64,000 nt of DNA, taken from the NCBI GenBank assembly GCA_001692895.1, contig KV748194.1, positions 2,104,746-2,168,745 of the forward strand, in the 5' to 3' direction. Positions 2,589 through 32,700 of this stretch are shown here, in pieces. Source of the stretch: Cenococcum geophilum 1.58. Its lineage: Eukaryota; Ascomycota; Dothideomycetes; Gloniales; Gloniaceae. The notes under the pieces were generated by a model. That model ran no database searches and was not told the origin of the DNA. It saw only the letters and a list, made by a program, of their open reading frames with translations. Within the stretch, counting starts at the first letter, position 1. Every line of letters begins with the position of its first letter. Both the position numbers and the translations under genes were made by a program.

Positions 2589-5500
2589 TAGCTAGACAGA
2601 CACTAGATCGCCCCGCTAAAACAGCTTTATACCCTAATTATTAAAAGGTAAACCTTTAGACTAAGTCGCGTTTAAGGGTTTAAACTATATAAGGAGGAAG
2701 ACAAGAAGATTAGGTCCCTATTACTAGATTAATTAGTCCTTTCTATTAGTAAACTACTACTTAATTTTAGATTAGTAAATAATAACAAGAAATTAATCCT
2801 TATTTAAACCTAACTCTCCTTATTATATAACCTATACCCCTAAGTTTATATTAATATAATAAGCCTAGTAAACTTTAGTAGTACTATAATAGTATTTACT
2901 AACGTAAAGTCTATTATAAGAAAGTATAACATTATAACTAAGAAGCTGCTAGCACCTAGGCCACTACGCCTTATAGGTAGTATCCTAACTTTACTTATTA
3001 CGGACTACTTTACTACCTAAATATTAATTAGCCTCTATACTAAAGCTATACTCTTTTTTATTACTAAACTCTCGCCCACTACCCTAATTATCCTAGGTAT
3101 ACCCTAGCTTTAAAAGCATAAGCCCTATCCCAGCTTTAGGAAACTTAAGATCCGCTTTAACTTAAACTACTACTTTAGGCACTATCTCTTATAGGGGATA
3201 ACCGACGTTAGTAGGGACGCCCTATATAAATACTTAGCACTATTAAGCCTAGTGCCTAGGACTATATATAAAGCCCTAATAGTAGAAGACGTTCCTAATA
3301 AAGGGGAGCCNNTATAGCTNNAAAGAAATAAGATANTAAAAGACTNGACTANCNTAGNACTTAAGACNAAAATAACGGGCTAGCCAGCCCTACTAAGACC
3401 AAGGAAGAAGGTCTACTTCGCGCCGCTATTACTAAGAATCCAACCCTAATCTAGGCACTATTTAAACCCTAGCCGCCTAGCCTAATACCTAGAACTAAGC
3501 CATATGCTATATACGCACACTATAGCTCGCGTTATAGTAAGGACTAGCTATAGAACTACTAAAACCCAGATAATAGAAACCGCGCTACTATAACGCCTAA
3601 CCTTATACCTATCTCCCGCGCGTACTATATAGGGCCGCCGCCTTATTTTCGCCCCCCTAGGCTAACTAAGCTATACTAGCCTAATTATAGCACTAGAGAA
3701 CCAGATACGCCCTAACCTAGATAATATTAAATATACTTATACTGTTAATTTTACCTAGTTCTATAAACAAAAAGATGTAAAGGTAATAAGGATCTATATA
3801 GCGGAGCTAGTAGAACTAATTAAATAAGATAAATACTAATAGCTGCTTAAAGAGCTGCCTATAGGCCTAATAAAAGTACTAAACCTATTAGAAAGGTCTT
3901 TCCGCTAGCTAGTAGAAGGCGACTATATAATAAAGGAAGCCTATAAAGTGCTCTCCCCCTATTTTTATAACTTCCTTAGGACAAATCTAAAAACTAAACC
4001 CAGGCTTTTGCATTAGAAGATAGTCAACACTAATATTAAAAAATTCCTAAAAGGCAAACTAGGATTAACCCGCGAAGATATTCTATAACGCCTATTAAAG
4101 GAGTTTAGTAAATATATTAAGCACTTCCTCCCTAAAAATATAGATAAGCTGCCCCTTTACCAACTATAGGACTATAAAATTAAGATTACCCCTAGAAACT
4201 AGGCCCTATACTATAAAAATAGACTACTCTTACCTACTAAACTTAGGTATATAAAGAAGTAAATTAATAAGATGCTGGATAAGGGTTTTATCCGCGAATC
4301 AACCTTACTAGCTACTATACTACTCCTCCTTACTACTAAGCCTAGCGGCAGTATATAAATTTATTATAACTATTAAGGCCTAAATACAGTTACTATTAAG
4401 AATTAATACCCACTGCTACTAATCCATAAGACACTTAACGTACTTTATAGTGCTAAGTACTTTACTAAACTTAATATAATTGCTGCGTTTAACCGGATTT
4501 AGATTATAAAGGGCTATAAATAGCTTATAGCATTTATTACCCGGTTCGGACTCTATAAGATACTAGTTATACTATTTAGCCTCTATAACACACCCGCTAT
4601 ATTCTAAAACTATATTAACTATATCCTATATAACGCCCTTAATAACTCCTATATTGCTTACCTTAACGACGTCCTTATCTTTTCTAAAATATGCGCTAAG
4701 TATACTAAATATATAAATAAAGTTATCTAAAGACTCAGCAATGCTAGACTTTAAATTAATATTAATAAGTCTAAGTTCTACTTTACTAAAATAAAATACC
4801 TCGGCTTAATTATCTTAACTAATAGCATAACTATAGACTTTAAAAAGGTATAAGCCTTATAGGAATAGAAGGACTTAACATTAATTAAAAAACTATAATA
4901 ATTTCTTAGCTTCGCGAACTTTTACTAATAATTTATCTAAGGCTACTCTACTATCGCTATACCTATAATAAAACTCCTAAAGAAGGATATTGGATGGCTA
5001 TAGGGACTAAAATAAGCTAAATCGTTTAAGACCCTTAAGGGAGCCTTTACTTTAGCACTAGTACTAGCATATTATAACTATATAAAGAAAACAGTGGTAG
5101 AGATAGATATATTAAATTAGGCTTCCGGCGGAGTCCTTTCCTAGTATAATAATAACGGAAAATTAAAACTGGTCGCATTCTTTTCCGCAAAGCACTCTAT
5201 GCTAGAGTATAACTATAAGATCTATAATAAAGAACTCTTAGCTATTATTAAGGCTTTAAAGGAATAGCGTCCTAAGCTATAAGGGACTAAAAAGCTGTTT
5301 AAAATTATCACCGACTAAAAGAACCTATAAACGTTTATAACTACTAAGCAGCTAAACTAGCGCTAAGTCTAGTAGGCAAAGTTCCTTTTATAGTTTAACT
5401 TTATAATTATATACAGACCTAGCAGCAAAGCCACGCTCTTTAACGCCCTAAGCTAGCTACTAGGAATAAGGCCTAAGGACGCTAATAATAAACACCTTCG

Positions 5501-7696: not shown

Positions 7697-10600
7697 TAAT
7701 TATTTAATAATAATAATTTATTACTTAACGTCCAATTCGGATCCCTATTAGGCCTACGCGGACTACTTCTTATGTATATATAGGGAGAAAACTCTATTTA
7801 AGAAAACCCTATAATTTATCTCCCTGCCTTTTAGGACTCGCCTATAAGGCGCCTATAGGGCGCCTATAAGTTACCTATAATGCTCTTACTACTTTACTTT
7901 TTAACCTCTTTAGGAACTACTGCTGCCGTAATAAGCCTATAGACGCGCTAGTATTATATACTTTACTTTACTACTATAGAGTTATTAGGGGGCGCCCGTT
8001 ACTCACCCCCCTCCTACCCTTTATTACTATTTCCCTTATAACCTAAAACTAGTTTAGTATATTTTAGCTAATAAGCTACTAGGTAACTACCTTAAGGCCT
8101 TTTTATATTAAGAGCAGTATATTATAGTTCTCTATGCTAGCTATTAAGAGTATTACTTCTTAGTTAGTGCGTAAGGGATATAATAGTATTATATATTTTA
8201 GTGTCTGTCTTAGCCAGCTATATTTATATCTTAGGCTACCTACTAGGACACCTACCTAGTAGAGCCAATCTTTTAGTCCTATTATTCCTATTCTTAAGAG
8301 TATTACTATTATATTTTCTACCTTTATTAGGCCTTCTTAGAGCCCTAAAGTATTTACCCCCTATAGTGTTAACTATACTATAGCTTAGGTTCCTCTTGCC
8401 TTAGTTAGCCTCTATACCTTTAACTCCTATATACCTCTCCAGCGTTAGTCTAACTAGTATTATATTATAGTAGATAGTTTCCTAGTATTCTTTTATACTC
8501 TACTTTAGCTCCTTTTTTTCTCTTACTATTATTTTTACTAGCCTCTTACGCGTCTCCCTTTCTCCTTTATATAGGCCTGGGCCCTAAAGCAGCACTATTC
8601 TTCTTCTACTTTTTTTACTTATTTCTCTAATATATCTTCCCTACTTTAGGGTTATTAGTTTATTCTCCTATAGGGCGCCCTAAGGTCCCTCTATAGTTTA
8701 TTTAGGCGTATTTTAATATACTTTATAACGTTAAAGTTACGTTTATTTTATGCCCTTTATATTACAGTGGCTTTAATATATAGTTATAGGGGGGGAATAT
8801 TGGCTTCCTTCTTAAGCAGTGCTGTGGCCGTTTGCTTATATGCGCCTATTATACTTTAAAGGCAGGCTATTTAAACCTTTTAGAGTAGTTTAAGGAGTAA
8901 CTTAGGGGGGCTTTTTTTAGATTCTTTAATAGCCTAAATACTAGACCTATATATTATAGTTAGCCGGATAACTGCTATATATAGTAGGTGTAACTTCTAA
9001 AAGTATAGACCCTATATAGAATTAACGATCCTAGATAATACGATGTACTATACTTAGCCCTTATAGGCCGCTTATGCCGTATATACGCTCTACTAAAGCT
9101 TACTATCTACCTATACTCCTAATACCCTTAGGCCCTAAACTAGTTAACCCCTAAAGCCTTAAATGCAAATTATATACTAAAGATCTATAGATTAGTTACA
9201 TTTTCTTATAAAATAGATTAGCTGGTATTTCTCTAGTAAGAATTAGACTTTATATTGTTTTATTTATTCTATATAGATATTATAAGCTTTTTCTAGTATT
9301 CTGTAATTCTTTACGGCTATTAGCCCATATATAATTAGGTTTGTGTTATTAATAAAGCCTATTCCCTAGGTCGCCCCTTTCTTAAAGAAGTTAAGTAGGT
9401 TGCTTATAAAGAAAAGGAAGAGTATAGGTAAGAGGGGTAATCCTTATAGTATTCCTGTTGCAACTATAATAAGGGGGCTTTAATATCCGCTAAAGATTAG
9501 TAATATTTCTTTCTAACCTATAAACCCTTAAATAAATTATATAATCTATTCTAGAAAGCCTTTTACCCTAAGGATATATAGGAGACGCTTATAGGGTACG
9601 TTATTATAGGCGCCACTAATATTTAGGCTAAGCATTAATACTATAAAGTCCCTTTATATCGCCTATGCGGATTTAATAGTAGTAGTAAGTAGCATAAGTG
9701 CTAATAGTGTTAAGCGGTTCTTTCTTACCCCTATTTAGCTCTATAGTAGTAAGGCGTATTCTTTAACTATATTTACTATATGGTCCGCTATTACCTTTTC
9801 TAAGATCTTACTAAGGGTGTTTTTTAAGGCAATAGGGCGGTAGCTTCCTAGGATTAAGTAATCTACTTTACCTTCTTTTTATAGAATAACCGTTGTTATA
9901 GATCTTCTAAGTTATAGGTAGTAGCCTATAGTAAAGTATACTCTAGCTATATCTATAAGCTAGGGTGCTATAAGTGGTTTATAGGTCTTTAGGGCCTTAT
10001 TTAGAATCCTATTTAGTCCTAGTATTATATTATTTAAAAGGCGGCTAATAGTTCTAGCCATTTCCTCTATTATTATATCGCTGTTAACCCATAGGCGAGT
10101 TACCGGTATTTTACTTATAATATTACTAAGGTCTACTAGAGCTAGTTAGGGGAAGAACCTTTCTATAAGGATCTTTACCTTCTTATTATTATTATTAGTG
10201 GCCTATAATTCCCCTACTCTTTATAGGGGTAGTAGGTATAAATCTTTTACTAGTTACCCTACCTTTTTCTTTACCTATTTTGCTATAGCCTATAGGCCCT
10301 TATTATAGGGGAGGCTTAAGTTAAAAGTATACTTATTTATAAATTGTCTCTAGTTATTCCTTACTTTTTTTAGGGTATTCTTTAACTGGTTTCTTATATC
10401 TTTATATTATCTCTTATCTTTAGGGTTATAGCTACTTAAGTATTTCTTTCTTACTTATTATTAGCTAGCTATAAGAACCGCGTATTATATAGACTATATA
10501 TATCGCGTATAGGGGCCCAGTCTTAAAACTAGGCAGTATTCTTTTAACCTATTTTTAATTGCTACCTAGATCCTTTTTAGTCTTTAGTTAATTTCCTTAG

Positions 10601-10783
10601 GGGTAGCTAATAAGCCTTATTTATTTAGTATTAGGTAGATTTCTTCTAGGTCTTAAAGTTATTATTTAACTATATTAAGGAAACTATTTGCCTTAAGCAT
10701 CCTTATTACATATCTTTTACTATTTAGTTATACCTTAATATCTAAATCTAGCTATATCTGGATGGGGATATAGTGTTATAGTG
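7697..10783 (-). mobile_element. Tad-like LINE copy A, 5'-truncated, RIP-damaged
   Basis: This copy is on the minus strand, with its 3' end at about 7,697. It is colinear with copy B (12,389 to about 15,420) and, reverse complemented, with copy C (about 22,010-25,055). It covers the RT domain and 3' region and breaks off at about 10,766, so it lacks the endonuclease and ORF1. CTATAATA occurs at both ends (7,689-7,696 and 10,784-10,791) and may be a TSD, but 17 unexplained bases precede the right copy. Stops from RIP are frequent. Confidence 0.8.
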
Positions 10784-10790
10784 CTATAAT

Positions 10791-12388
10791 AAAGTAGACT
10801 AAATAACTATATTACGCGTCTTAAAAAAAGAAGCTCTTACTATACCTAGCCTAAAAAGACTAAAACCAACTAAAAGAACCCTATAAAATACCTAGAGAAC
10901 CCCCCTAAGATATATATATCGTAGGGGAGGCATACATTAAACGACGGTAGTTTGTACTTACGCGTAACTGCCAGAACCACGCCTAGCAATAGCCCTCCAT
11001 AATAAAGATAGGCGAATACTATACTATAAAGCGGAAATACCTTTATTAAGAAGGCATCTAATAAAATATAAAGCCTACTAGACGCGTTTAGTACCTAGAA
11101 TTGCAGGGAAGTAACTATTAGCTATAATAACCTAATATAGCTAGTAAAATAGCTTCGCTAGTCTAGCGAACCTTAAGTGCCCCTCTAGTAAACCCTTAAT
11201 TAAATCCTCTAACGGCTAAGCAAAATTAAAAATAAATAAAACCCCCCTTTATTAGTAAACCGCACCTAAGCCGCCGTAGCTGCGCTTTTATAGTATAGGG
11301 AACTTACTCCCCTTAAGATAATAACCGGGTATATAATTATAATATAACTAAATATAGAAAAAGTAGAAGGGTTTAGGGGATAATTAGAAATAGAAATCCT
11401 TATAGAAATCTATAAAGAGGTCTATAACGCTATTATAGTCTAATACCTTAAAAGCGGAGATATTAGAGTTACCCTAAAGGACTAATAGGTAAAGGAATAA
11501 GCTATAAAGGTAGGAAATAGGCTAGGAGAACGTATTAGCATAAAAGTACTTTATAAGGATTACCTAGTTAAAGTCCTAGCGGTCCCTATAAGCCTTAGGG
11601 TAGAAAAGGGACACTAGGCGGATAATATAGTAATTATATAGAAGATAGTAAGATAAACAAAACGCCTTATACTAAAACTTAAAATTACCTAAATCTAATA
11701 GCTTTAATAGGAAAATACAAACTAAGCAAATAATAAGAATAATAAGAGGATATAAGGGTCGCTAAAAACTTGCTAGGGAGACGCTAGATAAACGTATAGC
11801 TCCCTTATTATTAGTATATATACACTAAAAATATAAAAACTCCTTATCTAAAAAGGAATAATTATAAACGGCCTTATATATAATATAAGGCTCTATAACT
11901 ACAAACTACGCCTAGAATAATACTATTGCTATATATAATAGGGACATACTTAATCTATATGCGCAGTATAGGTGTGCTATAGCTACTATATAGGCCCCTA
12001 TAATATAAAACACTACTTAAATTAAGACTAAACAAAATATATAAACTACTATTAAAGCATATATAAGGCGTAGGAGAGAGAAAACTACATTAAATATAGG
12101 AGATAGAAGGTAAGGGCTTAATAGCTATAGAAATAACTATACGTAAGGTTATATAAATAGAAACAACAGGCGATAAGCTAGGGGGGCGTAGGTACCTTTT
12201 TAGCGTTTTCTACCTTTAATACTAGGGGGCTAGGCTAGCTATCCTAAGCCTTAATAGGCTAAAAGTAATACTACGCGATATTACTAGACTATATAGAAAT
12301 ATAAGGGTTATAGGGAATATAAGGGAGAGGACGCCCTATAGGAAAACCCTTATAGATAGCTACAGTAAGCTTAAAACTAGGATAATTA
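10791..12388 (+). mobile_element. Tad-like LINE copy C, 5' part (ORF1)
   Basis: This is the 5' part of a plus-strand LINE that continues at 21,098. It holds the 5' leader and a broken ORF1. At about 11,910-12,020 two degraded CCHC knuckles can be read (a CYxC...GHTQSIC pattern followed by a second cysteine cluster), as expected of the nucleic-acid-binding ORF1 protein of Tad/I-type LINEs. It aligns with the reverse complement of copy B's 5' part (16,372-17,120 plus 20,273-21,083). It stops exactly where copy B is inserted. Confidence 0.8.
12375..12388. repeat. Target-site duplication, left copy (LINE copy B)
   Basis: AACTAGGATAATTA is found here and at 21,084-21,097. Joining copy C across this duplication gives one continuous LINE, which proves that B inserted into C. 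Confidence 0.85.
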
Positions 12389-15300
12389 TAATTATTATTC
12401 ATTGCTTAACGTCCGATTCGGATCCCTATTAGGCCTACGCGGACTACTCCTTATATACATATAGAGAGAAAACTCTATTTAAGAAAACCCCGTAATTTAT
12501 CTTCCCGCCTTTTAGGACTCGTCTATAAGGCGCCTGCAAGGCGCCTATAAGTCACCTATAGTGCTTTACTACCTTACTTTTTAACCTTTTTAGGAACTAC
12601 TGCTGCTATAATAAGCCTACGGACGCGCTAGTATTGTAAACTTTACTCTACCACTATAAAGTTATTAGGGGGCGCCTATTGCTCACCCCCTTACCTTTTA
12701 TTACTATTTCCTTTATAACCTAGAACTAGTTTAGTACATTATAGCTAATAAGCTACTAGGTAACCGCCTTAAGGCCTTTTTATATTAAGAGCAGTATATT
12801 ATAGTTCTCTATACTAGCTACTAAGAGTATTACTTCTTAGTTAGTATATAAGGGGCATAACAGTATTATATATTTTAGTATCTGTCTTAGCTAACTATAT
12901 TTACATCTTAGGCTACCTACTAGGATACCCACCTAGTAGAGCCGGTTTTTTAGTCCTATTATTCCTATTCTTAAAAGTGTTATTATTATATTTTCTGCCT
13001 TTATTAGGCCTTCTTAGAGCCCTAGAGTGTTTACCCCCTATAGCGTTAACCATACTATAGCTTAGGTTCCTCTTGCCTTAGTTAGCCTCTATACCTTTAA
13101 CTCCTATATACCTCTCTAGCATTAGTTTAGCCAGTATTATATTACGGTAGATAGTTTCCTAGCATTCTTTTATGCTCTACTTTAGCTTCTTTCTTTCTCT
13201 TACTATTATCTTTACTGGCCTCTTACGCGTCTCCCTTCCTCCTCTATATGGGCCTAGGCCCTAAAGCAGCACTATTTTTCTTCTACTTTTTTTTACCTAT
13301 TTCTCTAATATATCTTCCCTACTTTAGGGTTATTAGTTTATTCTCCTATATTTAGGCGTATCTTAATATACTTTATAACATTAGAGTTACGTTTATTTTG
13401 CGCCCTTTATATTACAGCGGCTTTAATATATAGTTATAGGGGGGGAATATTGGCTTCCTTTTCGAGCAGTGCTGTAGCCATTCACTTATATCCGCCTGTT
13501 ATACTCTAGAGGTAGGCTATTTAGACCTTTTAGAGTAGTTTAAGGAGTAATTTAGGGGGGCCTTTCTTAAATTCTCCAATGGCCTAAATACTAAACCTAT
13601 ACGTTATAGTTAGCCAGATAACTGCTGTATATAGTAGGCGTAACCTCTAGAAGCATAGACCCCATATAGAATTAACAATCCTAAATAATACGATGTACTA
13701 TACTTAGCCCTTATAGGCCGCTTGCGTCGTATATACGCTCTACTAAAGCTTACTATCTACCTATACTCCTAATACCCTTAGGCCCTAAACTAGTTAACCC
13801 CTAAAGCCTTAGATGCGAATTATATGCTAGAGATCTATAGATTGGTTACGTTTTCTTATAAAGTAAATTAGCTAGTATTTCTCTAGTAAGAATTGGACTT
13901 TATATCGTCTTACCTATTTTATATAGGTGTTATAAGCTTTCTCTAGTATTCTATAATTCTCTACGGCTATTGGCCCGTATATAATTAGGTTTATATTATT
14001 AACAAAGCCTATCCCCTAGGTCGCCCCTTCCTTAAAGAAGTTAAGTAGGTTACTTATAAAGAAAAGAAAGAGTATAGGTAAGAGGGGTAATCCTTATAGT
14101 ATTCCTGTTGTAACTGTAATAGGGGGGCTCTAGTATCCGCTAAAGACTAGTAATATTTCTTTCTAACCTATAAACCCTTAAACAAATTATATAATCCATT
14201 TTAGGAAGCCTTTTGCCCTAAGGATATATAGGAGACGCTTATAAGGTACGTTATTATAGGCGCCGCTAATATCTAGGCTAAGTATTAATACTACAAAGTC
14301 CCTTCGCATCGCCTATACGGATTTAATAGTGGTAGTAAATAGCATAAGTGCTAATAGTATTAAGCGGTTCTTTCTTGCCCCTATTTAGCTTTATAGTAAT
14401 AGGTTGTATTCCTTAGCTATATCTGCTATATGGTCCGCTATTACCTTTTCTAAGATCTTACTAAGGGTATTTTCTAAGGCAATAGGGCGGTAGCTTCCTA
14501 GGATTAAGTAATCTGCTTTACCTTCTTTCTATAAAATAACCGTCGTTATAGATCTTCCAAGTCGCGGGTAGTAGCCTATAGCAAAGTATACCCTAGCTAT
14601 ATCTATAAGCTAGGGTGCTATAAGTAGTCTATAGGTTTTTAAGGCCTTATTTAAAATCCCATTTAGTCCTAGTACTATATTATTTAAAAGGCGGCTAATA
14701 GTTCTGGCCATTTCCTCTATTATTATATCGCTGTTGACCCTTAGGCGAGTTACCAGTGTTTTACCTATAATATTACTAAGGTCTGCTAAAGCTAGTTAGG
14801 GGAAGAACCTTTCTATAAGGATCTTTACCTTCTTATTATTATTATTAGTAGCCTATAATTCCCCTGCTCTTTATAAGGGTAGTAGGTATAAATCTTTTAT
14901 TAGGCGCCTTACCTTTTTCTTTACCTATTTTACTATAGCCTAAAGGCCCTTATTATAGGGGAGGCTTAGGTTAGAAGTATACTTGTTTATAAACCATCTC
15001 TAGTTATTCCTTACTTCTTTCTTTAGGGTATTCTTTAACTAGTTTCTTATATCTTTATATTGTCTCTTATCTTTAGGGTTATAGCTACTTATATATTTCC
15101 TTCTTACTTATTATTAGCTGGTAATAAGAACCGCGTATTATATAGACTATGCGTATCGCGTATAGGGGCCTAGTTTTAAGACCGGGCAGTACTCTTCTAG
15201 CCCGTTTTTAATTACTACCTAAATCCTTTCTAGTCTTTAGTTAATTTCCTTAGGGGTAGCTAATAAGCCCTACTTATTTAGAATTGGGTAGATTTCTTCT

Positions 15301-17120
15301 AGGTCTTAGAGTTATTATTTAACTATATTAAGGAAACTATTTATCTTAAGCTTCCTTATTATATATCTTTTACTACTTAGTTACGCCTTAATATCTAAAT
15401 CTAGCTATATCTAGATAGGGATATAATCTAAGGCGAGTGCCTATTTTTCTTTAGGGTTGTACCTTTCGAGTCTCTAGTATAGGCCTTTATCTATAAATAT
15501 GAGGTCAATTATACTTCTAGAGGTTCCTTATTACTATATAGTTGCTCCTAGGAGGGTGGCTAACTTAAGGCCCTAGGTATCTATAGCTCTTAATAGGCAC
15601 TTTACCTATCAATTAACAGCGATATAGATACCCCCCTACTATAAGTAGTAGAGGTTTATATCTCCTAGTAGGATAAACTCTATACCTTTAGTTTCTAGTA
15701 AGCTTATTACTAATATAATATTCTCTATTTATAGAACCCCTTTAACCCTAGGGTTATATATATTAATAATTTATACCAGTCCCCTATATATCTAGATTAT
15801 TATAACTATAATATCTAGGTTAACTACCTACTATAACTATAAGAATAGGCTGATAGCCTTGCTAATTATAAAGCATATATATATAGCTGCTTTTGGTTCG
15901 TATAAGAGCTAAAATCCTCAGGGGCAGTATATCGATTATATATAGGTATTGTAGTATAGCTCTTATATAGTAAGGATATAGTGTTTCTCTAGGTCTAGAC
16001 TATCTAGTAAAGGCCTTACAAGATGGTAGTTTGTGTTGCCGCAGTTATACTATATAATAGATAGGTGGCGGACCCCTAGTAAGGGTCCTTTGCCTCTTCT
16101 TTATTCTTTACTTCTTCTATTTCTACTTTCTCTAAAATATTTAGAACTTCTATCTCTTATATCTATACCCTAGTTACTACTTATTTTATATAGAGCTTTT
16201 TATTTCTATATCTTATGTTCCTACTAGCGCTTTTATATCTAAATCTGTTATTATCTCTAGTTCCTCCCCTATTCTTACTAGCTAGCTATATACCCTTTAT
16301 AGGTTAGCTATAAATGTTATATTTGCCGCGTTAAATCTAATTCTTAATTGTCCTAGTCTTAAGCTTACTATAGCTGTCTATAGGGGTCTTTCTATAAGGC
16401 GTCCTCTTCCTTATATCCCTATATAGTTTAGTAATATTATATAGCGCCACTTCTGGCCCGTTAAGGCTTAGGATGGCTAGCCTAGCCCCCTAGTACTAAA
16501 GGTAGGAAATGCTAGGAAGGCACCTACGTCCCCCTAGCTTATCGCCTGTTATTTCTATTTATATAACCTAGCGTGCAGTTATTCCCGCAGCTATTAAGCC
16601 CTTACCTTCTACCTCCTATATTTAATGCAGTCTTCTCTCTCCTACGCCTTATATATGCTTCGGTAGCAGTTTACACATTTTATTTAGTCTTAATTTAAGC
16701 AGTATCTTATATTATAGGGGCCTACACAGTAGCCGTAGCACACCTGTGCTGCGTATATGGATTAGGTATATCCCTATTATATATAGCGGTAGCATTGTTC
16801 TAGGCGTAGTCTATAGTTATAAAGCCTTACGTTATATATAAGGCTATTTATAATTATTCCTTTTTAGATAAGAAGTTTTTATATTCCTAGTATATATATG
16901 CTAACGATAAGGGAGCTATACGTTTAACTAGCGTCTCCCTAGCAAGTCTCTGGCGACCCTTATATCCTCTTATTATTCTTATTATTTACTTAATTTACAT
17001 TTTCCTATTAAAGCCATTAGATTTGGGTAATCTTAAGGCCTAGTATAAGGCGTTCTATATATTTTACTATCTTCTATATAGTTGCTATATTGTCCGCCTA
17101 GCGTCCCTTTTCTACCCTAA
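12389..17120 (-). mobile_element. Tad-like LINE copy B, 3' part
   Basis: This minus-strand copy has its 3' end at 12,389 with a short ATTATT-rich tail. It carries the 3' region, the reverse transcriptase, the APE-type endonuclease and part of ORF1, all RIP-broken. At 17,120 it is interrupted by an LTR element and resumes at 20,273. Excluding that insertion and one TSD copy, copy B is about 5,543 bp, matching copy C (about 5,556 bp); both are therefore near full length. Confidence 0.85.
17116..17120. repeat. 5-bp target-site duplication, left copy
   Basis: CCTAA precedes the LTR element and recurs at 20,268-20,272 directly after it, the size expected of LTR retrotransposon integration. Confidence 0.85.
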
Positions 17121-17306
17121 TGTTACGGCTTGTATAAATGCCTCTGAACCAAAGCTTGTAGAATGCTGTATTACGAAGATACTAAGCTAAGGAGTAGAAG
17201 AAGGTTGAGGAAGGGCTAGGTCTATATACACGAGCCAAGTCTCTAAGCGAGCCCCTAACTGGGCTGCATGTAGATATCGCAGGGGCGGTGCCCCAGCGCT
17301 GTCACA
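17121..17306 (-). repeat. LTR (left copy, 186 bp; 3' LTR in element sense)
   Basis: This 186-bp repeat is TGTTACGG...GTCACA on the plus strand and aligns without gaps to 20,082-20,267. I count 16 differences, all transitions, which fits RIP. It is read on the minus strand because a polypurine tract (minus strand, GGAAGGGGGGGG from 17,321 to 17,310) abuts it. On that strand the LTR starts TGTGACAG and ends CCGTAACA, the usual gypsy-like TG...CA termini. Confidence 0.92.
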
Positions 17307-17457
17307 TTACCCCCCCCTTCCAAAAAAGCCTGCCCTTAGGCTTTATCCCCTTGTAGAAAAGAAAGAGAAAGAAAAGAAAAAAATCTAGTATCTGGCGCTT
17401 AATCGCGATGCTGGTTGATATAGAACTTGCAGTAGTCCTGCAGCTCCTGCTGCTGCG

Positions 17458-17596
17458 AGGTATATCGCTATACCTAGTTAACGTGGGGCAGTCAGCCGTC
17501 ATACAGCTCCTGTAAGGGGTATATCGCTATACCTAGTTGACGTAGGGTAGGCAGCCGTCCTGCAGCTCCTGCTGCTGCGAGAGGTATATCGCTAGG
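17458..17596. repeat. Palindromic AGGTATA hairpins near the polypurine end
   Basis: At 17,458-17,475 AGGTATA and TATACCT flank the tetraloop TCGC, a perfect 7-bp stem. About 57 bp later (around 17,517-17,532) the same hairpin recurs with a GGTATA stem, and a third, half-broken copy starts at about 17,583. Each is set in a similar context with CAGCTCCTG and GGCAGCCGTC or a variant of them. Confidence 0.7.
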
Positions 17597-17761
17597 AGCC
17601 CTCCGTTGGTCGTTGTTCCTCCTCTAGAACTCCGGTACCTCCTAGCTCTACTATCCCCCCTTTTATTATAGCGCGCCCCAAGCCATAAAAAAAGCCCCCC
17701 TAATCCCCCTCTTATAAAAAGGTAGGTGAAAAAGTTTTAATAAGGGTGGGAGGGTTAGGGA

Positions 17762-19400
17762 GTTGTAGCTCGCATGCATATCGGCATAAGCTCTTATCCG
17801 TTCGGTAGTAGTATAGTGCCAGCGACAGGTCGTTTAGGTGGCAGTACAATGCCAGCAATGGGGTCGTATTTTAGGGAGCAAAGCTCTCCCTTATATACAG
17901 TTGATACTGTAGGCGAAGTAGTAAAAGTCGTTTGTAGTGCTGCAGGCAGAGTAGCAGAAGTCGATTATAGTGCTACAGGCGAGGCAGTAAGGTATTAGTT
18001 TAGCTGTAGGCGAGGCAGTAGAGGTCTAGTGGCAGTACGGTGCTAGCGTCAGATAGTAGATAGTAGGCGTATCGGCGCTATCGTTGGTTAATTGATCGCA
18101 GGCGTATTGGCACGATCATTTGGTCAATTAGACTGTAGGCGTATCGGCACAGCCGTTGTCTATTTGGGGGTAGCAGTACGGTGTAAGCGGCAGGGTCGTA
18201 TAAGGGGCAAAGGTCCTCCTTGTATACGATTGTTACTGCAAGCAGGGCAGTAGAAGTCGGTTAGCTGCAGGTAGAGCAGCGATGGTCGAATCGGGATTAG
18301 CTGCAGGCAGAGCAGCAAGGGTCTGTTCGTTCAGCTGCAGGTAGAGCAGCAAGGGTCGGTCAGCCGCTGATTAAGCAGCTAGGGTTGGTCAGCTGCAGGC
18401 AGGGCAGCAGGGGTCTATTGTAATAGCAGGCGTATCGGCGCTATTTATTGTCTGGTTCGTCCTAATCGACTTCGCTCATCGCAGCACTAGTCTCAGTCTC
18501 AGCTGCGGTCGTTCCTCGCAGTGTGCGTAGCTTAGTCTTAGTCGAAGGGGGTTGTCCTTCCGTAGGCGTATCGGCACGGTATCTTATCTTGTGGGTCGTA
18601 GGTGTATCGGCACGACGGTAATCAAGATCGTAGGCATATCAGCACGATCGTTGTCTCGTTCGTAGATCGCGGGCGTATCGGCGCGATTATTTGATTGGTA
18701 GATCGCAGGCAGATTAGCGCGATCGTTCGGTCGACTATAGGCGCAGCGGCATAGTCGTTGTCTGTTCGGGTCGCAGGCGTATCGGCACGACAGTAATCGG
18801 GTTCGGGGTTTAGGGTAGCAGTACGGTGCAAGCGTTAGGTGATAGTAGGCATATCGGCGCTATTATTTGTCAATTGATCGCAGGCGTATTGGTACGATTA
18901 TTTGGTTAATTAGACTGTAGGCGTATCGGCACAGCCGTTGTCTATTTGGAGGTAGCAGTACGGTGTAAGCGGCAGGGTCGTATAAGGGGCAAAGGTCCTC
19001 CTTATATATAGTTGTTACTACAAGCAGGGCAGTAAAAGTTGGTTGGCTGCAGGTAGAGTAGCAAAGGTCTATTGTAATAGCAGTACGGTGCTAGCGATAG
19101 GTTTATTTTCCGTAGGCAAATCGGCACGGAATCTTGTCGGCTTGTATGTGTATCGGCACGAGTTTCTTGTCTGGTCGCAGGTGTATAGGCGTAACGGTTG
19201 TCTGGTTCAATTGCAGGCATATTAGCGCGAGGTCTTTTTAGTAGGTTGTAGTTCCATAGGCGTATTGGCACGGAGCTTATTAATTTAGGTAGCAGTACGG
19301 TGCAAGCGTCGGGTGACGATAGTGGTCGAACGTAGAGCTTGTCTATTGGTCGGTTGATGGGTCGCAGGCATATTGGCGCGATGGTAATTAGGTTTGGGGG
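17762..19400. repeat. Array of variable-stem, constant-loop hairpins
   Basis: At least 16 clear units have the same 12-nt core AGGCGTATCGGC (minor variants), always in one orientation, flanked by inverted arms of 4-7 bp that differ from unit to unit. Examples: GATAG/CTATC at 18,059-18,082; GATCG/CGATC at 18,094-18,117; CTGT/ACAG at 18,133-18,152; AATAGC/GCTATT at 18,422-18,445; GTCGT/ACGAC at 18,595-18,616; GATCGC/GCGATC at 18,701-18,724; CGACTAT/ATAGTCG at 18,732-18,757; TTCCGT/ACGGAA at 19,108-19,131. Neighbouring units are 32-39 bp apart. Interspersed are a class with stem GCTGC/GCAGC and loop AGGYAGA (18,264; 18,300; 18,334; 18,392), a related unit TACTGC/GCAGTA at 18,234, and a class with core GCA-GTACGG-TGC (17,839; 18,030; 19,078). 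Confidence 0.9.
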
Positions 19401-19530
19401 TTTGGGGTAGCAGTACGGTGCCAGTGTTAGGTCCTTCCTAATTGATTTCGTCTCTCCTTGTATAGCTTAGTATTAATTAGGGTGGTTATCGCAGCGTAGT
19501 AGCTAGAGGATAATGGGTAGGATTTGTTTT

Positions 19531-19705
19531 AGAGGACTCCGCGGATAATATGCACCTACCACCCAATGGCACGGCGCGGGTCATAAGTTAGCTCGTCTTG
19601 GCCGTTGGCCCAAACTTAATGCATATTAGAGGACTTCGCGGACAATATGCACCTACCGCCTAATAGCACGGCGCGGGTTATAAGTTAGCTTATCTTAGCT
19701 GTCAC
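19531..19705. repeat. Direct repeat, 97-bp period
   Basis: A segment beginning AGAGGACT at 19,531 recurs at 19,628 with mainly transition differences. It contains ATGCACCTACC, GGCACGGCGCGGG (second copy AGCACGGCGCGGG) and ATAAGTTAGCT. It lies inside the LTR element between the hairpin array and the right LTR. Confidence 0.8.
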
Positions 19706-20081
19706 TATAGGATTAGTGCTGGGCTTAGTAATAGGATTACTATATCGTTCTCTGTAGTACTAGACTAAGTCTTAACCAGGGTTGTCTCTATAGCTCGTAT
19801 AACTCCGTATTAGTCGAAAAGATTAGAGGGGTAAGATATTATTGCCTTCCTAGGTAGTTATCCTTATCCATAGGAGACCTTCTAGCTGCTTAAATACCGG
19901 CTCCTAGTATTAATGATAGCGACTTAACGCGTTAATAACGCGCAGCTAGGGGTGTTCAACGTGTGTTCTCCGTAAGAACACGTAGGATAGGGGTGGGAGA
20001 TTATCTAGGCCTTCCCAGGCGAGGTAAAGAGGGAGCTTTAAAACGAATAAAGTCCCCCCTAGGTGGGTAAGCTTAGTATAA

Positions 20082-20267
20082 TATTACGGCTTGTATAAAT
20101 GCCTCTGAACCGAAGCTTATAGAATGCTATATTACGAAGATACTAAGCTAAGGAGCAGAAGAAGGTTAAGGAAGGGCTAGGTCTATATACACGAGCCAAG
20201 TCTCTAAGCGAGCCCCTAATTAGGCTGTATGTAGACGTCGTAGGGGCGGTGCCCTAGCGCCGTTATA
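20082..20267 (-). repeat. LTR (right copy, 186 bp; 5' LTR in element sense)
   Basis: Gap-free counterpart of 17,121-17,306, with RIP-type transitions that also hit the termini (TATTACGG...GTTATA instead of TGTTACGG...GTCACA). It is followed directly by the second CCTAA. Confidence 0.92.
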
Positions 20268-20272
20268 CCTAA
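20268..20272. repeat. 5-bp target-site duplication, right copy
   Basis: CCTAA, matching 17,116-17,120. LINE copy B resumes immediately after it. Confidence 0.85.
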
Positions 20273-21083
20273 GGCTTATAGAAACCGCTAAGACTTTAAC
20301 TAAGTAGTCTTTATAAAGCACTTTTATGCCAATACGTTCTTCTAGCCTGTCCTCTACCTTTATAGCTCGTTCCTTTACCTATTAGTCCTTTAGGGTAACT
20401 CTAATATCTCCGCTCCTAAGGTGTTGGACTACAACTATATTATAGACCTCTTTGCGAATCTTTATAAGGACTTCTGTTTCTAATTATCCCCTAAGCCCCT
20501 CTGCTTTTTCTATATTTAGTTATATTATAATTATATACCCGGTTATTATCTTAAGGGGGGTAGGTTCCCTATACTATAAAAGCGCGGCTACGGCGGCCTA
20601 GGTGCGGTTCGCCAATAAGGGGGGTTTTTATTTATTTTTAATTTTGCTTAGCCGTTAGAGGATTTAATTAAGGGTTTGCTAAAGGGGCGCCTAAGGTTCA
20701 CTAGACTAGCGGAGCCATTCTACTAGCTATATTAGTTCGTTATAGCTAATAGTTACTCCCCTACAATTCTAGATACTAGACGCATCTAATAGGATTTATA
20801 TTTTATTAGATGCCTTCTTAATAGAGGTGTTTCCGCTTTATAGTGTAGTATTCGCCCGTCTTTATTATAGAGGGCCGTTATTAGGCGTAGATCTGGCGGT
20901 TGCGCGCGAGTATAAGCTACCGTCAATCGATATATACCTCCCCTACGATGTATGCATCTTAGGGGGATTCTCTAGGTGTTTTTTAGGGTTCTTTTTAGTT
21001 AGTTTCAGTCTTTTTAGGCTATGTGCAGCAAGAGCTCCTCGCATATTGGGGTAGGGTAAGGATATATTTTTAAAGGCGGCTTT
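20273..21083 (-). mobile_element. Tad-like LINE copy B, 5' part
   Basis: Continuation of LINE copy B after the LTR element: the beginning of ORF1 and the 5' leader on the minus strand. The first 300 bp aligns with the reverse complement of 11,200-11,600 in copy C. The 5' end abuts the second AACTAGGATAATTA. The leader (about 20,880-21,060) keeps a visibly higher GC content than the rest. Confidence 0.8.
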
Positions 21084-21097
21084 AACTAGGATAATTA
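21084..21097. repeat. Target-site duplication, right copy (LINE copy B)
   Basis: AACTAGGATAATTA, identical to 12,375-12,388. Confidence 0.85.
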
Positions 21098-24000
21098 AGA
21101 ATTAGACTTAACGTGGTAAATAAAATATTTATAGCTAACTCTTAAAGAATATATAGCTAACTAGTAAGAATAGGGGAAGAACCAGAGATAATAATAGATT
21201 TAGATATAAAAGCGCTAGTAGGAATATAAGATATAGAAATAGAAAGCTCTATATAAAATAAGTAGTAACTAGGGTATAGATATAAGAGATAGAAGTTCTA
21301 AATATCCTAGAGAAAGTAGAAATAGAAAAAGCAAGAAATAATAAAGAGGTAAAGGACCCTTACCGGGGGTCCGCCACCTATCTATTATATAGTATAACTA
21401 TAGTAACACAAACCACCGTCTTATAAGGCCCTTACTAAATAGTCTAGACCTAAAGAAATACTATATCCTTACTATATAAGAGCCGTACTATAATACCTAT
21501 ATATAATTAATATACTGCCCCTAAGGATTCTAGCTCCTATATAAACTAAAAGCAGCCATACGCGTGTGCTTTATAATTAGTAAGACTATTAGCCTATCCT
21601 TATAGTTATAGTAGGCAGTTAATCTAGATATTATAGTTATAACAATTTAGATATATAAAGGACTAGTATAAATTATTAATATATATAACCTTAGGGTTAA
21701 AGGGGTCCTATAAATAGAGAACATTATATTAGTAATAAGGTTACTTAAAACTAAAGGCATAAAGTTTATTTTATTAGAAAATATAAACCTCTACTACCTA
21801 TAGTAGGGGGGTATCTACGTCACTGCTAAACAATAGGTAGAGTGCCTACTAAAAGCTATAGACACCTAGGGCCTTAAGCTAGCTACCCCCCCTAGAGCAA
21901 TTATATAGTAATAAGGATCCGCTAAAAGTATAATTAACCTTATATTTATAGATAAAGGCCTATATTAGAGACTTAAAAGGTATAACCCTAAAGAAGAATA
22001 GGCACTTACTTTAGACTATATCCCCATCTAGATACAGCTAGATTTAGATATTAAGGCGTAACTAAATAGCAAAAAATATATAATAAGGATGCTTAAGGTA
22101 AATAGCTTCCTTAATATAGTTAAATAACAACTTTAAGACCTAGAACAAATCCACCTAATACTAAATAAATAAGGCTTATTAGCTACCCCTAAGGAAATTA
22201 ACTAAAGACTAAAAAGGATCTAGGTAGCAATTAAAAATAGGTTAAAAGAATACTGCCTAGTTTTAAGACTGGGCCCCTATACGCGATATATATAGTCTAT
22301 ATAATACGCGGTTCTTATAGCTAGCTAATAATAAGTAAGAAAGAAATACTTAAGTAGCTATAACCCTAAAGATAAGAGATAATATAAAGATATAAGAAAC
22401 CAGTTAAAGAATACCCTAAAAAAAGTAAGGAATAACTAGAGACAATTTATAAATAAGTATACTTTTAACTTAAGCCTCCCCTATAATAAGGGCCTATAGG
22501 CTATAGCAAAATAGGTAAAGAAAAAGGTAGGGTAACTAGTAAAAGATTTATACCTACTACCCCTATAAAGAGTAGGGGAATTATAGGCCACTAATAATAA
22601 TAATAAGAAGGTAAAGATCCTTATAGAAAGGTTCTTCCCCTAACTAGCTCTAGTAGACCTTAGTAATATTATAAGTAAAATACCAGTAACTCGCCTATGG
22701 GTTAACAGCGATATAATAATAGAGGAAATGGCTAGAACTATTAGCCGCCTTTTAAATAATATAATACTAGGACTAAATAGGATTCTAAATAAGGCCCTAA
22801 AGACCTATAAACCACTTATAGCACCCTAGCTTATAGATATAGCTAGAGTATACTTTACTATAGGCTACTACCTATAACTTAGAAGATCTATAACAACGGT
22901 TATTCTATAAAAAGAAGGTAAAGTAGATTACTTAATCCTAGGAAGCTACCGCCCTATTGCCTTAAAAAACACCCTTAGTAAGATCTTAGAAAAGGTAATA
23001 GCGGACCATATAGTAAATATAGTTAAAGAATACGCCTTACTACTATAGAGCTAAATAGGGGTAAGAAAGAACCGCTTAACACTATTAGCACTTATGCTAC
23101 TTACTACTACTATTAAATCCGCATAGGCGATATAAAGGGACTTTATAGTATTAATGCTTAGCCTAAATATTAGTGGCGCCTATAATAACGTACCCTATAA
23201 GCGTCTCCTATATATCCTTAGGGTAAAAGGCTTTCTAGAATAGATTATATAATTTATTTAAGGGTTTATAGGTTAGAAAGAAATATTATTAGTCTTTAAT
23301 AAATACTAGAGCCCCCCTATTATAGTTATAACAGGAATACTATAAGGATTACCCCTCTCGCCTATACTCTTCCTTTTCTTTATAAGCAACCTATTTAACT
23401 TTTTTAAAAAGGGGGCGGCCTAGAGAATAGGCTTTATTAATAATATAAACCTAATTATATGCGGGCTAACAGCTGTAAAGAATTATAGAATACTAGAGAA
23501 AGCTTATAATACCTATATAGAATAGGCAAGATAATATAAAGTCTAATTCTTACCGGAGAAATACTAGCTAATCTATTTTATAAAAAAAATATAACTAATC
23601 TATAAATCTTTAGTATATAATTTATATCTAAGGCTTTAGGGGTTAACTAGTTTAGGGCTTAAGGGTATTAGGAGTATAGGTAGATAGTAAGCTTTAGTAG
23701 AGCGTATATATAGTATAAGCGGCCTATAAGGGCTAAGTATAGTATATTACATTATCTAGGATTATTAATTTTATATAGGGTCTATGCTTTTAGAGGTTAC
23801 GCCTACTATATATAGTAGTTGTCCGGCTAACTATAACGTATAGGTCTAGTATTTAGGCTATTAGAGAATCTAAAAAAGGCCCCCCTAAGTTACTCCTTAA
23901 ACTACTTTAAAAGGTCTAAATAGCCTACCTTTAAAGTATAATAGGCGGATATAAGTAAACGGCTATAGCATTGCTTAAGAAGGAAGCTAATATTCCCCCC

Positions 24001-25055
24001 CAATAACTATATATTAAAGCCGCTGTAATATAAAAGGCGTAAAATAAATATAACTTTAATATTATAAAGTATATTAAGATACGCCTAAATAAACTATAGA
24101 GGGACCCTAGGGCGCCCTATAGGAGAATAAACTAATAACCCTAAAGTAGGGAAGATATATTAGAGAAATAGGTAAAGAAAGTAGAAGACGAATAGTACTA
24201 CTTTAGGGCCTAGGCCTATATAAAAAAGGAAGGGAAACGTATAAGAGGCTAGTAAAAATAATAGTAAGAAAGAAAAAGGAGCTAAAGTAGAGCATAAAAG
24301 AATGCTAAAAAACTATCTACTATAATATAATACTGCTTAAACTAATACTAAAAAGGTGTATAGGAGTTAAAGGTATAGAGGCTAACTAAGGTAAAAGGAA
24401 CCTAAGCCGTAGCATAGTTAACGCTATAGGGGGTAAATATTTTAGGGCTCTAAGAAGGCCTAATAAAGGTAGAAAATATAATAGTAATAATAGGACTAAA
24501 AGACTAGCTCTACTAGGTAGGTATTCTAGTAGGTAGCCTAAGATGCAAATATAGCTAGCTAAAATAGACACTAAAACATATAATACTATTATACCCCTTA
24601 TATACTAACTAAGAAGTAATACTCTTAGTAGCTAGCATAAAGAACTATAATATACTGCTCTTAATATAAAAAGGCCTTAAGGTAGTTACCTAGTAGCTTA
24701 TTAGCTAAAATATACTAAACTAGTTTTAGGTTATAAAGGAAATAGTAATAAAGGCTGGGGGGGGGAGCAATGGGCGCCCCCTAATGACTCTACAGTAGTA
24801 GAGTAAAGTTTGCAATACTAGCGCGTCCGTAGGCTTGTTACGGCAGCAGTGGTTCCTAAGGAGGTTAAAAAGTAAGGTAGTAGGAGCACCACAGGTGACT
24901 CGCAGGCGCCTGAGTCCCAAAGGCGGGGAGATGGATCACGGGGTTTTCTCAAATAGAGTTTTCTCCCACATGTACATAAGGAGTAGTCCGCGTGGGCCCA
25001 ATAGGGATCCGAATCGGACGTTAAGCAATGAATTATTATTAAATAAACCGGGCCT
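21098..25055 (+). mobile_element. Tad-like LINE copy C, 3' part (endonuclease, RT, 3' UTR)
   Basis: Continuation of copy C. An APE-type endonuclease is recognisable at about 21,380-21,960 (FILLENIN near 21,770, where RIP would turn GDIN into ENIN). The reverse transcriptase spans about 22,910-23,480: SYRPIALKNTLSKILEKVIA, SLNISGAYNNV, GLPLSPILFLFFISNL, and the active site as FINNIN instead of FIDDIN. No RNase H domain was seen. The last 310 bp (24,745-25,055) is GC-richer and nearly free of RIP, ending in AATTATTATTAAATAA. With its 5' part the copy totals about 5.56 kb. Confidence 0.88.
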
Positions 25056-29789: not shown

Positions 29790-32700
29790 TATTAAGAGAG
29801 GTTAACGTGTGACCGCAGTAGCTTGATGACCGCCTCGTGCCCTTTATCTGCCGCCTACCCTAGCGGCGTCCGTCCGTACTAATTATCCTTTAAGTTGACG
29901 TCAACCTTGCTAGTCTTGAGCAGCAGCTTAATAACCGCCTTGTGCCCTTTCTCTGCCGCCCACGATAGCGGTGTCTGTCCAAAATGCCCTTTCTCTGCTG
30001 ACTACGATACCGGCGCCCGTCTAGGCCTAGCTATCCCATTATTATCTTTTAAGTTAACGTCAACCTTGCCAGTCTTAAGTAGCAGCTTAATAACCGCCTC
30101 ATGCCCTTTCTCTACTGCCTACGATAGCGGCGTCCGTCTAGGTCTAGCTAACCCTTTATTATCTTTTAAGTTAACGTTAACCTTGCCAGTCTCAAGTAGC
30201 AGCTTTATAACCACCTTATGCCCCTTTTCTGCTGCTAACGATAGCGGCGTTCGTCCTAACCCATTTGACCCATTATTATCTTTTAAGTTAACGTCGACCT
30301 TACTAGTTTTGAGCAGCAGCTTAATAACTGCCTTATGTCCTTTTTCTGCCGCAAACGATAGCGGCGTCCGTCTGTACCTAGAATGATCCTTTAAATTGAT
30401 GTCGACTTTACTAGTTTTAAGAAGCAGCTTAACGACCGCCTCGTGCCCTTCCTCTGCTGTAAATGATAGCGGCGTCTGTCTGTACCTAGAACGATCCCTA
30501 GAGTTAATATCGACTTTGCTAGTCTTAAGCAGCAGTTTAACAACTGCTTTGTGCCCTTTCTCTGCTGCAAACGATAGTGGCGTCCGTCCGGTCCTATGGA
30601 GCTTATTATCCTTTGAATTAACGTCGACCTTACTAGTTTTAAGCAGCAGTTTAACGACCGCCTTGTGCCCTCCCTCTGCTGCCCATGATAGTGGCGTCCG
30701 TCCAGGCCTAGAGAATTTATTATTATCTTTGAAGTTGACGTCAACTTTGCTAGTTTTGAGCAGCAGCTTAACAATTGTTTTGTATCCTTTTTCTGCTACT
30801 AATGATAGCGGTGTTCGTCCGGATCCATCCTTTAAGTTGATATTGACTTTGCCAGTTTCGAGCAGTAGCTTGATGACCCTACCTATACCCCGCCTTGTGG
30901 CTTCACAAAGCACATCACTGTCCCAAATTGTTTTAATATTGGTTATGGCGATCTTAACTTTTGCTGCTTTGCCAAGTAGCATTATTAGAATGTCTTCAGA
31001 ATACCTTGTTGCGGCTTCTTTTAATACCAGTTTACCCCATCTATCTTGCAAATTAAGTGGAGGTCCTTTCTTTAGCAGTGCACATATTACCGCCGAGTTC
31101 CAGGACTTTGTTGCGATGTGCAATGTATCCGCCTTCGCATTATTACAAAGTCTAAGCTCCAGGAGAAGTCGCACCGCAGAATCATTTCCAGCGCTCGCCG
31201 ACTCAAGAAGGGGTTTGCCATCCATTGGATCAATACAATTGTGATTTAGTAGAAAATTGATTATATCTGAGTAACCATGAAGTGCTGCATGGGTTGTAAT
31301 GGAGTAGCCCTCATCCGAAAGTTGACGGCAATATGCATGAAGATTAAGAGTTGGTAATTGCAATAAGACCTTCAAGAGGCCGACGTGCCCCGCATTAATG
31401 GCCCAGCGGAAGAGTCCAATGTGTGGTAGGCGGTTTGATGCACTCGGATTGCCCTAGGGTCGGATATCAAATGAAGTTTGTTTATCCATAGCTAGGAATC
31501 TAAACTTCTTCCACGGAATATCATCCTTAGTTATCGTTGACGTATGCTTTAACCAATTTTTAACCGCGTAGGTTAAAAATTGGTATTTTCTGCTCATATC
31601 TGGGGGTGGTGGCCTCTTTAACTCGGCGAACCGTGCAAGGTTAAGAGCTAGCGACTTTTGTTCTATACCCCGACGATGTAGAGATTCCCAAAGTTTGAGT
31701 ATGCTAGATACAGCATTCTAGACGCTTAATCTAGATGTGACACTGGCTATAATCCCAGTTGGGGTAGGAAGTTGGCTTGCTTGTTGGGGAATTTTAGGCC
31801 CTGGTATAGTGATTTGGGTTTTAAAGTCTGAGAATAGCAGGTACGTGATGCAGATCTCTCTAGCTCCAATATCGGCTTTTTGGGGGCGGAAGTGTAACCC
31901 AGGGGTTGAGCCTCCCGGTGGCAGCCTAATTAAAAACTGCTGAACAGTATGATGGGCAAAGCGGGCGGTTCCATCATTATTAAGAACCACGAGGTTTCCG
32001 CAATTTTGAATTAAGCGCGAAGTATCTGGGATTTTCGTTGAGTCCTAGGTTTTATTAGATCGGTTAAAGGCGATGGCTTCCGCTAATTCTGTTATGAGCA
32101 GAGGACGTTTAGCAGAAGTAATCCATTTAAAAATCTGTTGAGCTCGGTTTACCCTCGCAGGATTTTGTTTAATCTTTTTTACTACCCTTGCGTATGTTTC
32201 TGTTATTCCTTTGGGAAGGTTTTGAAGTGTTTGTCTGATACTAGAATCGGAGTCCGTCTTGTAAAGGTTGGCAAGTTGGAAATAAACCTAAAGGAACCTA
32301 ATAAAATAAGTTAGTTATGTAAGGTTAACTAAAGAGTGATATGCAAGGGGCAACGGACATCCCGTGAGCTTGGCTTGTAAGTGTAGTTATTACCTTATAT
32401 TGAAGAGAGGGATCTTGAATCTTTAATGCTCCAGAACTTATGTTAAAGTTCATCGTCTCCTCTATGAAATGAGCGATATTGTCTGAAATTTTTTCCGCTG
32501 AAACTTGGAGGTGAGAGAATTTCTTTAATGAAGCCGAGATGATGTGATTATCGCGACTTGATATAAATATCTTTACGGTTGGTTGCCTGGACTGAGATAG
32601 TTGATATACAATGGATAAGATTATGGTCTGCACCTCGCTTCTATATTTGTCGAGGCCGTTAATGAAGAGATATACTTTAGAGAAGTGCTTGATTACGCGG

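Follow-up and report, generated by a model that had tools for sequence, protein, structure and literature searches.

Described relatives and the element that carries the array

LARD and TRIM elements of plants have two LTRs and no gag or pol, are presumed to depend on autonomous elements, and are said to specify well-conserved RNA secondary structures (PMC7215508). The element described here, which lies in a 64,000-nucleotide stretch of the Cenococcum geophilum 1.58 genome (the window), likewise has two LTRs and no recognised gag or pol, but unlike LARD and TRIM elements as that source describes them, it carries numerous short hairpins whose loop is held and which are common to different LTR families. 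Since LARD and TRIM elements are already known for conserved RNA structures (PMC7215508), the array is a variant on a known theme, and what would be new relative to them is a many-hairpin, held-loop cassette present in three LTR families. The LTR is short, as in a TRIM, whereas the internal region (2.0-4.3 kb across 11 elements) does not fit the description 'almost no internal domain'; in comparison with a LARD, this region has a conserved leader and tail and a mosaic array, for which one 2-kb query returned 144 matches, mostly fragments.

The RNA of Tf1 is complementary to its primer site over its first 11 bases (PMC7175516). As in Tf1 and sushi-type Ty3 elements, the LTR here is complementary, over 10 nt, to a primer site adjoining the 5' LTR; unlike Tf1, the array element has no recognised coding region. 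HINEs, which are non-autonomous Helentrons with embedded tandem repeats, resemble the array element in being non-autonomous and in having an internal repeat array, but they belong to another element class, and held-loop covarying hairpins are not part of the description in that source (PMC7492417). The earlier note on this DNA had known of no LTR element with such an array, and none of the papers found in literature searches describes one in its title or abstract. Mitochondrial double-hairpin elements are defined by inserting at sites for which empty counterparts also exist. The hairpins here are dispersed, as are those and other repetitive hairpin-forming elements, but they lie in LTR elements on large contigs and the retrieved loci contained no convincing empty sites; the earlier note had called the mitochondrial elements only a loose parallel.

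The array sits inside a 3,147-bp insertion (17121-20267) without a recognised gene, flanked by CCTAA target site duplications at 17116-17120 and 20268-20272. The insertion splits an older repeat at 17120/20268, and a copy of that repeat in inverse orientation in the window is uninterrupted. Paired LTRs, a target duplication, a polypurine tract and a primer site were all found, as in LTR retrotransposons, and because the polypurine tract is on the minus strand, the element RNA would be read from that strand, with the sense loop GCCGATACGCCT. In this direction the order is 5' LTR (20082-20267), primer binding site (20070-20079; sense ATACTAAGCT), conserved leader (19386-20069), array, conserved tail (17322-17761), polypurine tract (17310-17321; sense GGAAGGGGGGGG) and 3' LTR (17121-17306; TGTGACAG...GCCGTAACA). 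The two LTRs are 186 bp each and 92-93% identical. The same order of LTR, leader, array, tail and LTR was found in eight copies retrieved by place, which have internal regions of 2.4-4.3 kb; the tail was matched in all eight, and the leader match was split or partial in loci L070 and L073. A purine tract precedes the 3' LTR in 11/11 elements examined, seven of which have a perfect 5-bp target site duplication. The leader also contains a 77-nt direct repeat at 97-nt spacing (19529-19702), with cross-matches in 7/8 retrieved copies and none in L070.

The primer binding site lies 2 nt from the 5' LTR and is complementary to AGCTTAGTAT, which occurs in the 5' LTR at 20140-20149, with TATATA 40 nt upstream, and in the 3' LTR at 17179-17188. 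This 10-nt complementarity is present in 13/13 elements, two coding relatives included, and is reached by at most 0.3% of shuffled primer sites; TATATA lies 37-47 nt upstream of the self-primer in 12 of the 13. The element is thus a putative Tf1-type self-primer, self-priming being proposed from complementarity and the RNA 5' end being placed at AGCTTAGTAT by prediction. A single stop-to-stop frame in the element reaches 150 aa, a sense frame of 154 aa running through the end of the array (19002-19466), and Pfam gave no match for the three frames searched, namely this one, a 306-aa frame in L074 and a 148-aa frame in L080. The array element is accordingly classed as a non-autonomous LTR retrotransposon, probably borrowing its machinery from Ty3-type relatives.

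The C. geophilum genome comprises 178 Mb with 81% repeats, and has been compared with that of Lepidopterella palustris (PMC5023957). The element neighbours an SDA1 gene that is 97% identical to a JGI-source protein and 85% to that of L. palustris, and is flanked by inverted copies of other repeats (8007-16357 and 21085-24882; up to 97% complementary). Tandem repeats of 108-117 bp at 29825-30838 overlap long frames and possibly belong to a repeat-protein gene.

The hairpins and their pairing

A covariance model, as the earlier note had proposed, was built from 42 representative units and run on the window, where it placed 21 class A hairpins with variable 5-6 bp stems at 17766-19385, all 21 on the minus strand (the weakest two at E 0.0044 and 0.036), and none at E≤1 in the rest of the 64 kb. 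The plus-strand loop AGGCGTATCGGC, at up to two mismatches, has 20 matches at 17774-19377, of which those at 19179 and 19187 overlap each other, and 25 matches in the full window against a mean of 4.3 and a maximum of 12 in shuffles. Across the 162 contigs of the genome (177.2 Mb), there are 485 occurrences of the exact loop, compared with 25 of the backwards pattern. The count of at least 16 units given previously was therefore conservative, the arms quoted with it are present in the sequence and the loops do all point the same way, but the reported spacing of 32-39 bp between neighbours applies only within clusters, the remaining gaps being 68-291 nt. An array segment at 18054-18287 on the minus strand is duplicated at 18836-19069 (91%). 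A curated RNA family was considered as an identity for the array and dismissed, as Rfam returned no match at E≤1 over 16500-20500.

Hairpins of a second class, with the sense loop CCGTAC and a TAGCA/TGCTA-like stem, are interspersed between the class A units (for example at 18030-18045, minus strand); the retrieved loci contain 97 distinct CCGTACTG sites, 97/97 on the same strand as the class A loops. A third class, reading GCTGC-AGGYAGA-GCAGC on the plus strand, recurs about every 29-34 nt (18264-18280 and similar). An exact partial tandem duplication of the loop (11 nt) inside one stem was seen in 23 retrieved loci, including L044, L074 and L076, with overlapping loci counted separately.

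Pairing was assessed on units selected by their loop only from the retrieved loci, with those carrying more than two loop mismatches left out, so that loop conservation is partly ascertained by this choice. Across 436 units, the Watson-Crick fraction between a unit's own arms was 0.69-0.88 at stem positions 1, 3, 4 and 5, compared with 0.39-0.64 when shuffled, and position 2, which is mostly G-C, showed no real excess (0.74 versus 0.71). No transversion-type mismatch was present in pairs 1-5 of 389/446 units, against 189 with arms shuffled. When all 1,653 pairs of columns separated by 15 or more positions were ranked, the top three places went to stem pairs 5, 3 and 4, in that order, with pair 6 seventh and pair 2 at rank 181; with the distance lowered to at least 10 (1,953 column pairs), a linker pair ranked third, stem pair 4 fourth, pair 1 tenth and pair 2 275th.

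Clustering of the linkers with transitions ignored produced 87 clusters, of which 43 with fewer than three units were dropped and 44 kept as subfamilies. Watson-Crick pairing was found in 214/264 stem cells of these subfamilies, compared with 141 when permuted (sd 6.5, maximum 165, 5,000 permutations), and stem pairs 3-5 were fully paired in 32 of the 44. The core stems fall into seven types (ATC, ATA, GTC, ACT, CTC, TCC and ATT, the last possibly a decayed ATC); the claim that stems vary independently while remaining complementary is thus borne out for the pairing, which is above chance, and not for the variation, which is not free. In the 42 subfamily representatives that remain once two double-loop clusters are set aside, the covariation measure was 0.661 versus 0.287 shuffled (sd 0.026), with slid controls at or below 0.159, but two of the five measures showed no excess, namely pairs with two-sided change (5 versus 4.9 shuffled) and pair types (15 versus 13.6). 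The corresponding value for A2 was 0.575 versus 0.298, and this counts for less as A2 was fitted to the covariance model. RNAalifold added two inner G-C pairs, kept in 41/42 representatives and without covariation, resulting in a stem, a 2-nt bulge and a hexaloop.

A tree-aware null (233 units, 40 simulations) left only stem pair 3 clear, which scored 210 where the highest simulated value was 206, and pairs 4 and 5 fell within the null (E about 2.1 and 0.6, respectively). Clade signal inflates the covariation, and a single pair clearly exceeds what phylogeny would give. When units with matching linkers were compared (827 pairs), there were 920 one-sided stem changes, 185 cells with two-sided change (104 in the shifted control) and 109 double changes from one Watson-Crick pair to another, all of these transitions. 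As transversional compensation is absent between copies with common linkers (0 in 827), the covariation is old; recent compensatory evolution was not found, and changes between copies look like RIP-like decay after insertion rather than continuing compensation. Folding energy was mostly ordinary (minus strand, 150-nt windows, z from +1.1 to -3.3), the exceptions being those from 18150 and 18300 (z of -3.0 and -3.3), and a general excess of folding energy was likewise not seen.

LTR families with and without the array

The minus-strand sense of the array, its presence in other LTR families and its absence from coding relatives extend what had been noted for the window. Similar arrays in sense orientation were found in two LTR families, F2 and F3, beside that of the array element (F1), and modules common between families are 83% identical over 66 bp. 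The F2 element in L080 has LTRs at about 2450-2698 and 4350-4596 (95% identical), an ACACC target duplication, the array inside, and frames of up to 148 aa. Forty F2 places were scored genome-wide from 362 candidates. F2 also looks self-priming (L080:2699-2723), with a 10-nt primer of its own that differs from that of F1 and of which only the copy within the 3' LTR is intact. The F3 element in L081 has LTRs at 1580-1755 and 4574-4749, reading TATTGGGAAT...CCAACA/CTAACA, ends which we take to be copia-like, and a CCTAT duplication. No self-primer was found in F3, where the longest complements were 6 and 7 nt, the same as in shuffles; its sense was assigned from the direction of its LTRs together with a short run of purines ahead of the second one.

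All 133 covariance model matches in eight F1 copies are on the sense strand, as are 14/14 in L080 and L081, with strand set by the LTRs. By coordinates, the loops were in sense in 7/7 F2 and 4/4 F3 copies overlapping the 100 exact loops listed of 485, counts that include the query copies. L083 has 11 model matches on a single strand, and LTRs were not found there. Two 427-bp array blocks, 81% identical and 1.75 kb apart (L001:1453-1870 and L002:1453-1870), each start soon after an LTR-like TGTTGGAATGTATAGAC start, possibly placing an array within an LTR, with no clean element resolved.

With up to three mismatches allowed, the junction of LTR and primer site matches the genome 740 times (control 0), and two coding relatives, L078 and L079, were taken from the 100 listed. 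These two elements, 6.2 and 6.6 kb long, have LTRs of their own and are decayed, without a 120-aa frame; L078 spans an RVT_1 match (C2:2094253-2094735) and is called Ty3-type from our own reading of the RVT_1 residues. Both have in common with the array element the primer site and 83 nt of R-U5 (90-92%), together with short stretches of the leader (29-48 nt) and the tail (36-38 nt), and differ from it in U3. The covariance model found no class A hairpins in either, so the array is not a general packaging signal of that lineage.

Explanations for the array

The best account of these observations, to which we give somewhat less than an even chance, is a hairpin array in the sense RNA that was selected while the elements were active, probably as a multivalent site at which a protein acting in trans would dock. 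It is preferred on the basis of the old covariation, the held loop, the single sense and the occurrence in three LTR families without recognised genes. The array would belong to the RNA of a non-autonomous LTR retrotransposon. Each unit there would fold as a fixed loop on a stem of 5-6 bp, perhaps with the two inner G-C pairs and 2-nt bulge, and both pairing and loop would be maintained by selection during element replication. The repeated loops would dock a helper Gag/nucleocapsid or a host export or stability factor, and docking would bring the untranslated RNA into the particle. Arrays would expand and be reshuffled via segmental duplication and template switching, and inserted copies would later decay through C-to-T and G-to-A changes. 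The helper would probably be found among Ty3-type relatives, and R-U5 and the primer site are common to the element and the two coding relatives. The LTRs and pairing in the earlier picture of an LTR element with arms covarying around a held loop were observed, and selection itself is inferred from the old divergence between subfamilies. Counted against an RNA hairpin are the single pair in the tree test, the lack of compensation between copies, the ordinary folding energy, the fading lean towards G.U described below and the long frames in some arrays.

A further possibility, which we regard as less likely than not, is that the array is a transferable RNA module, i.e. a multivalent sense hairpin cassette acquired by exchange between non-autonomous LTR families. 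By binding one and the same factor, either the helper Gag or a host protein for export or stability, it would give untranslated RNA access to particles. If so, the array would serve the parasites as a common tag for packaging or export, one that is missing from the coding relatives examined. To our knowledge, how untranslated parasitic retrotransposon RNAs enter the particles of another element is an open question, for which a held-loop cassette in one sense across three LTR families offers a concrete candidate tag. The array also suggests that structured RNA may hide in sequence annotated as repeat debris.

Paired stems could also arise without selection, if quasi-palindrome correction or within-hairpin template switching during reverse transcription copied one arm into the other. 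Hairpins are known to promote template switching, and the mosaic arrays and tandem loop duplications are in keeping with such events, but this process would account for the stems and not for the held asymmetric loop or the one sense across three families. Switching between units at the loop would moreover mismatch the arms, contrary to the deficit of transversion-type mismatches, and the 920 one-sided against 109 double Watson-Crick changes indicate that arm correction is not frequent now; we consider this route unlikely, though to be taken seriously. Somewhat less probable still is descent and exchange only, in which a satellite-like repeat that started from some seven stems spread by recombination among non-coding LTR elements and its pairing is functionless. 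The modules common between families, the restriction of double changes between copies to transitions, and the inflation of covariation by clade signal all fit such a history, whereas the stem types differ via two-sided transversions and pairing among the 44 subfamilies lies beyond every permutation. The insertion of a mobile loop into pre-existing palindromes, after the manner of mitochondrial double-hairpin elements, would explain a held loop between varied palindromic arms, but a search of the retrieved loci with 367/446 queries, double-loop units being excluded, returned eight candidate loop-less places, none convincing and the best two retaining a diverged loop, and the earlier suggestion of such placement has next to no probability.

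A role at the DNA level, in which a single-stranded or cruciform hairpin of the cDNA or genome is recognised by a protein, for example in integration or chromatin, was given a low probability, close to that of descent and exchange. Pairing by itself cannot separate RNA from DNA, and the single orientation equally fits a single-stranded cDNA, but the fixed centre and variable symmetric arms are the reverse of a dimeric DNA-binding site, which was dismissed on this form, and the mismatches fixed within subfamilies lean weakly to G.U on the sense strand. At the tightest clustering, fixed G.U and A.C numbered 20:5 (p 0.004), compared with 15:6 (p 0.08) and 8:5 (p 0.58) at looser clusterings, and in the 42 representatives 22:7 (p 0.008); minority variants, from tightest to looser, numbered 63:87, 109:109 and 121:105, and the lean was absent in 25 units of L080, L081 and L083 (11:15). 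The lean thus weakly favours sense RNA over DNA. That the array is or was translated as a sense-direction repeat protein is very improbable. The longest sense frame exceeded shuffles in 6/10 arrays (300 shuffles each), with none as long as the 306 aa of L074 or the 116 aa of L073, and 6-11 as long as those of the window, L075, L076 and L080; however, frame length was ordinary in L069, L070, L071 and L072, the three frames searched lacked Pfam matches, and repetition of a stop-free unit could itself lengthen frames. The argument that differing loop frames speak against protein-level constraint is upheld by the L074 frame, which reads the loop in three phases, and qualified by those copies whose sense frames exceed shuffles. 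The L074 frame crosses its array at 1238-2158 on the minus strand of that locus.
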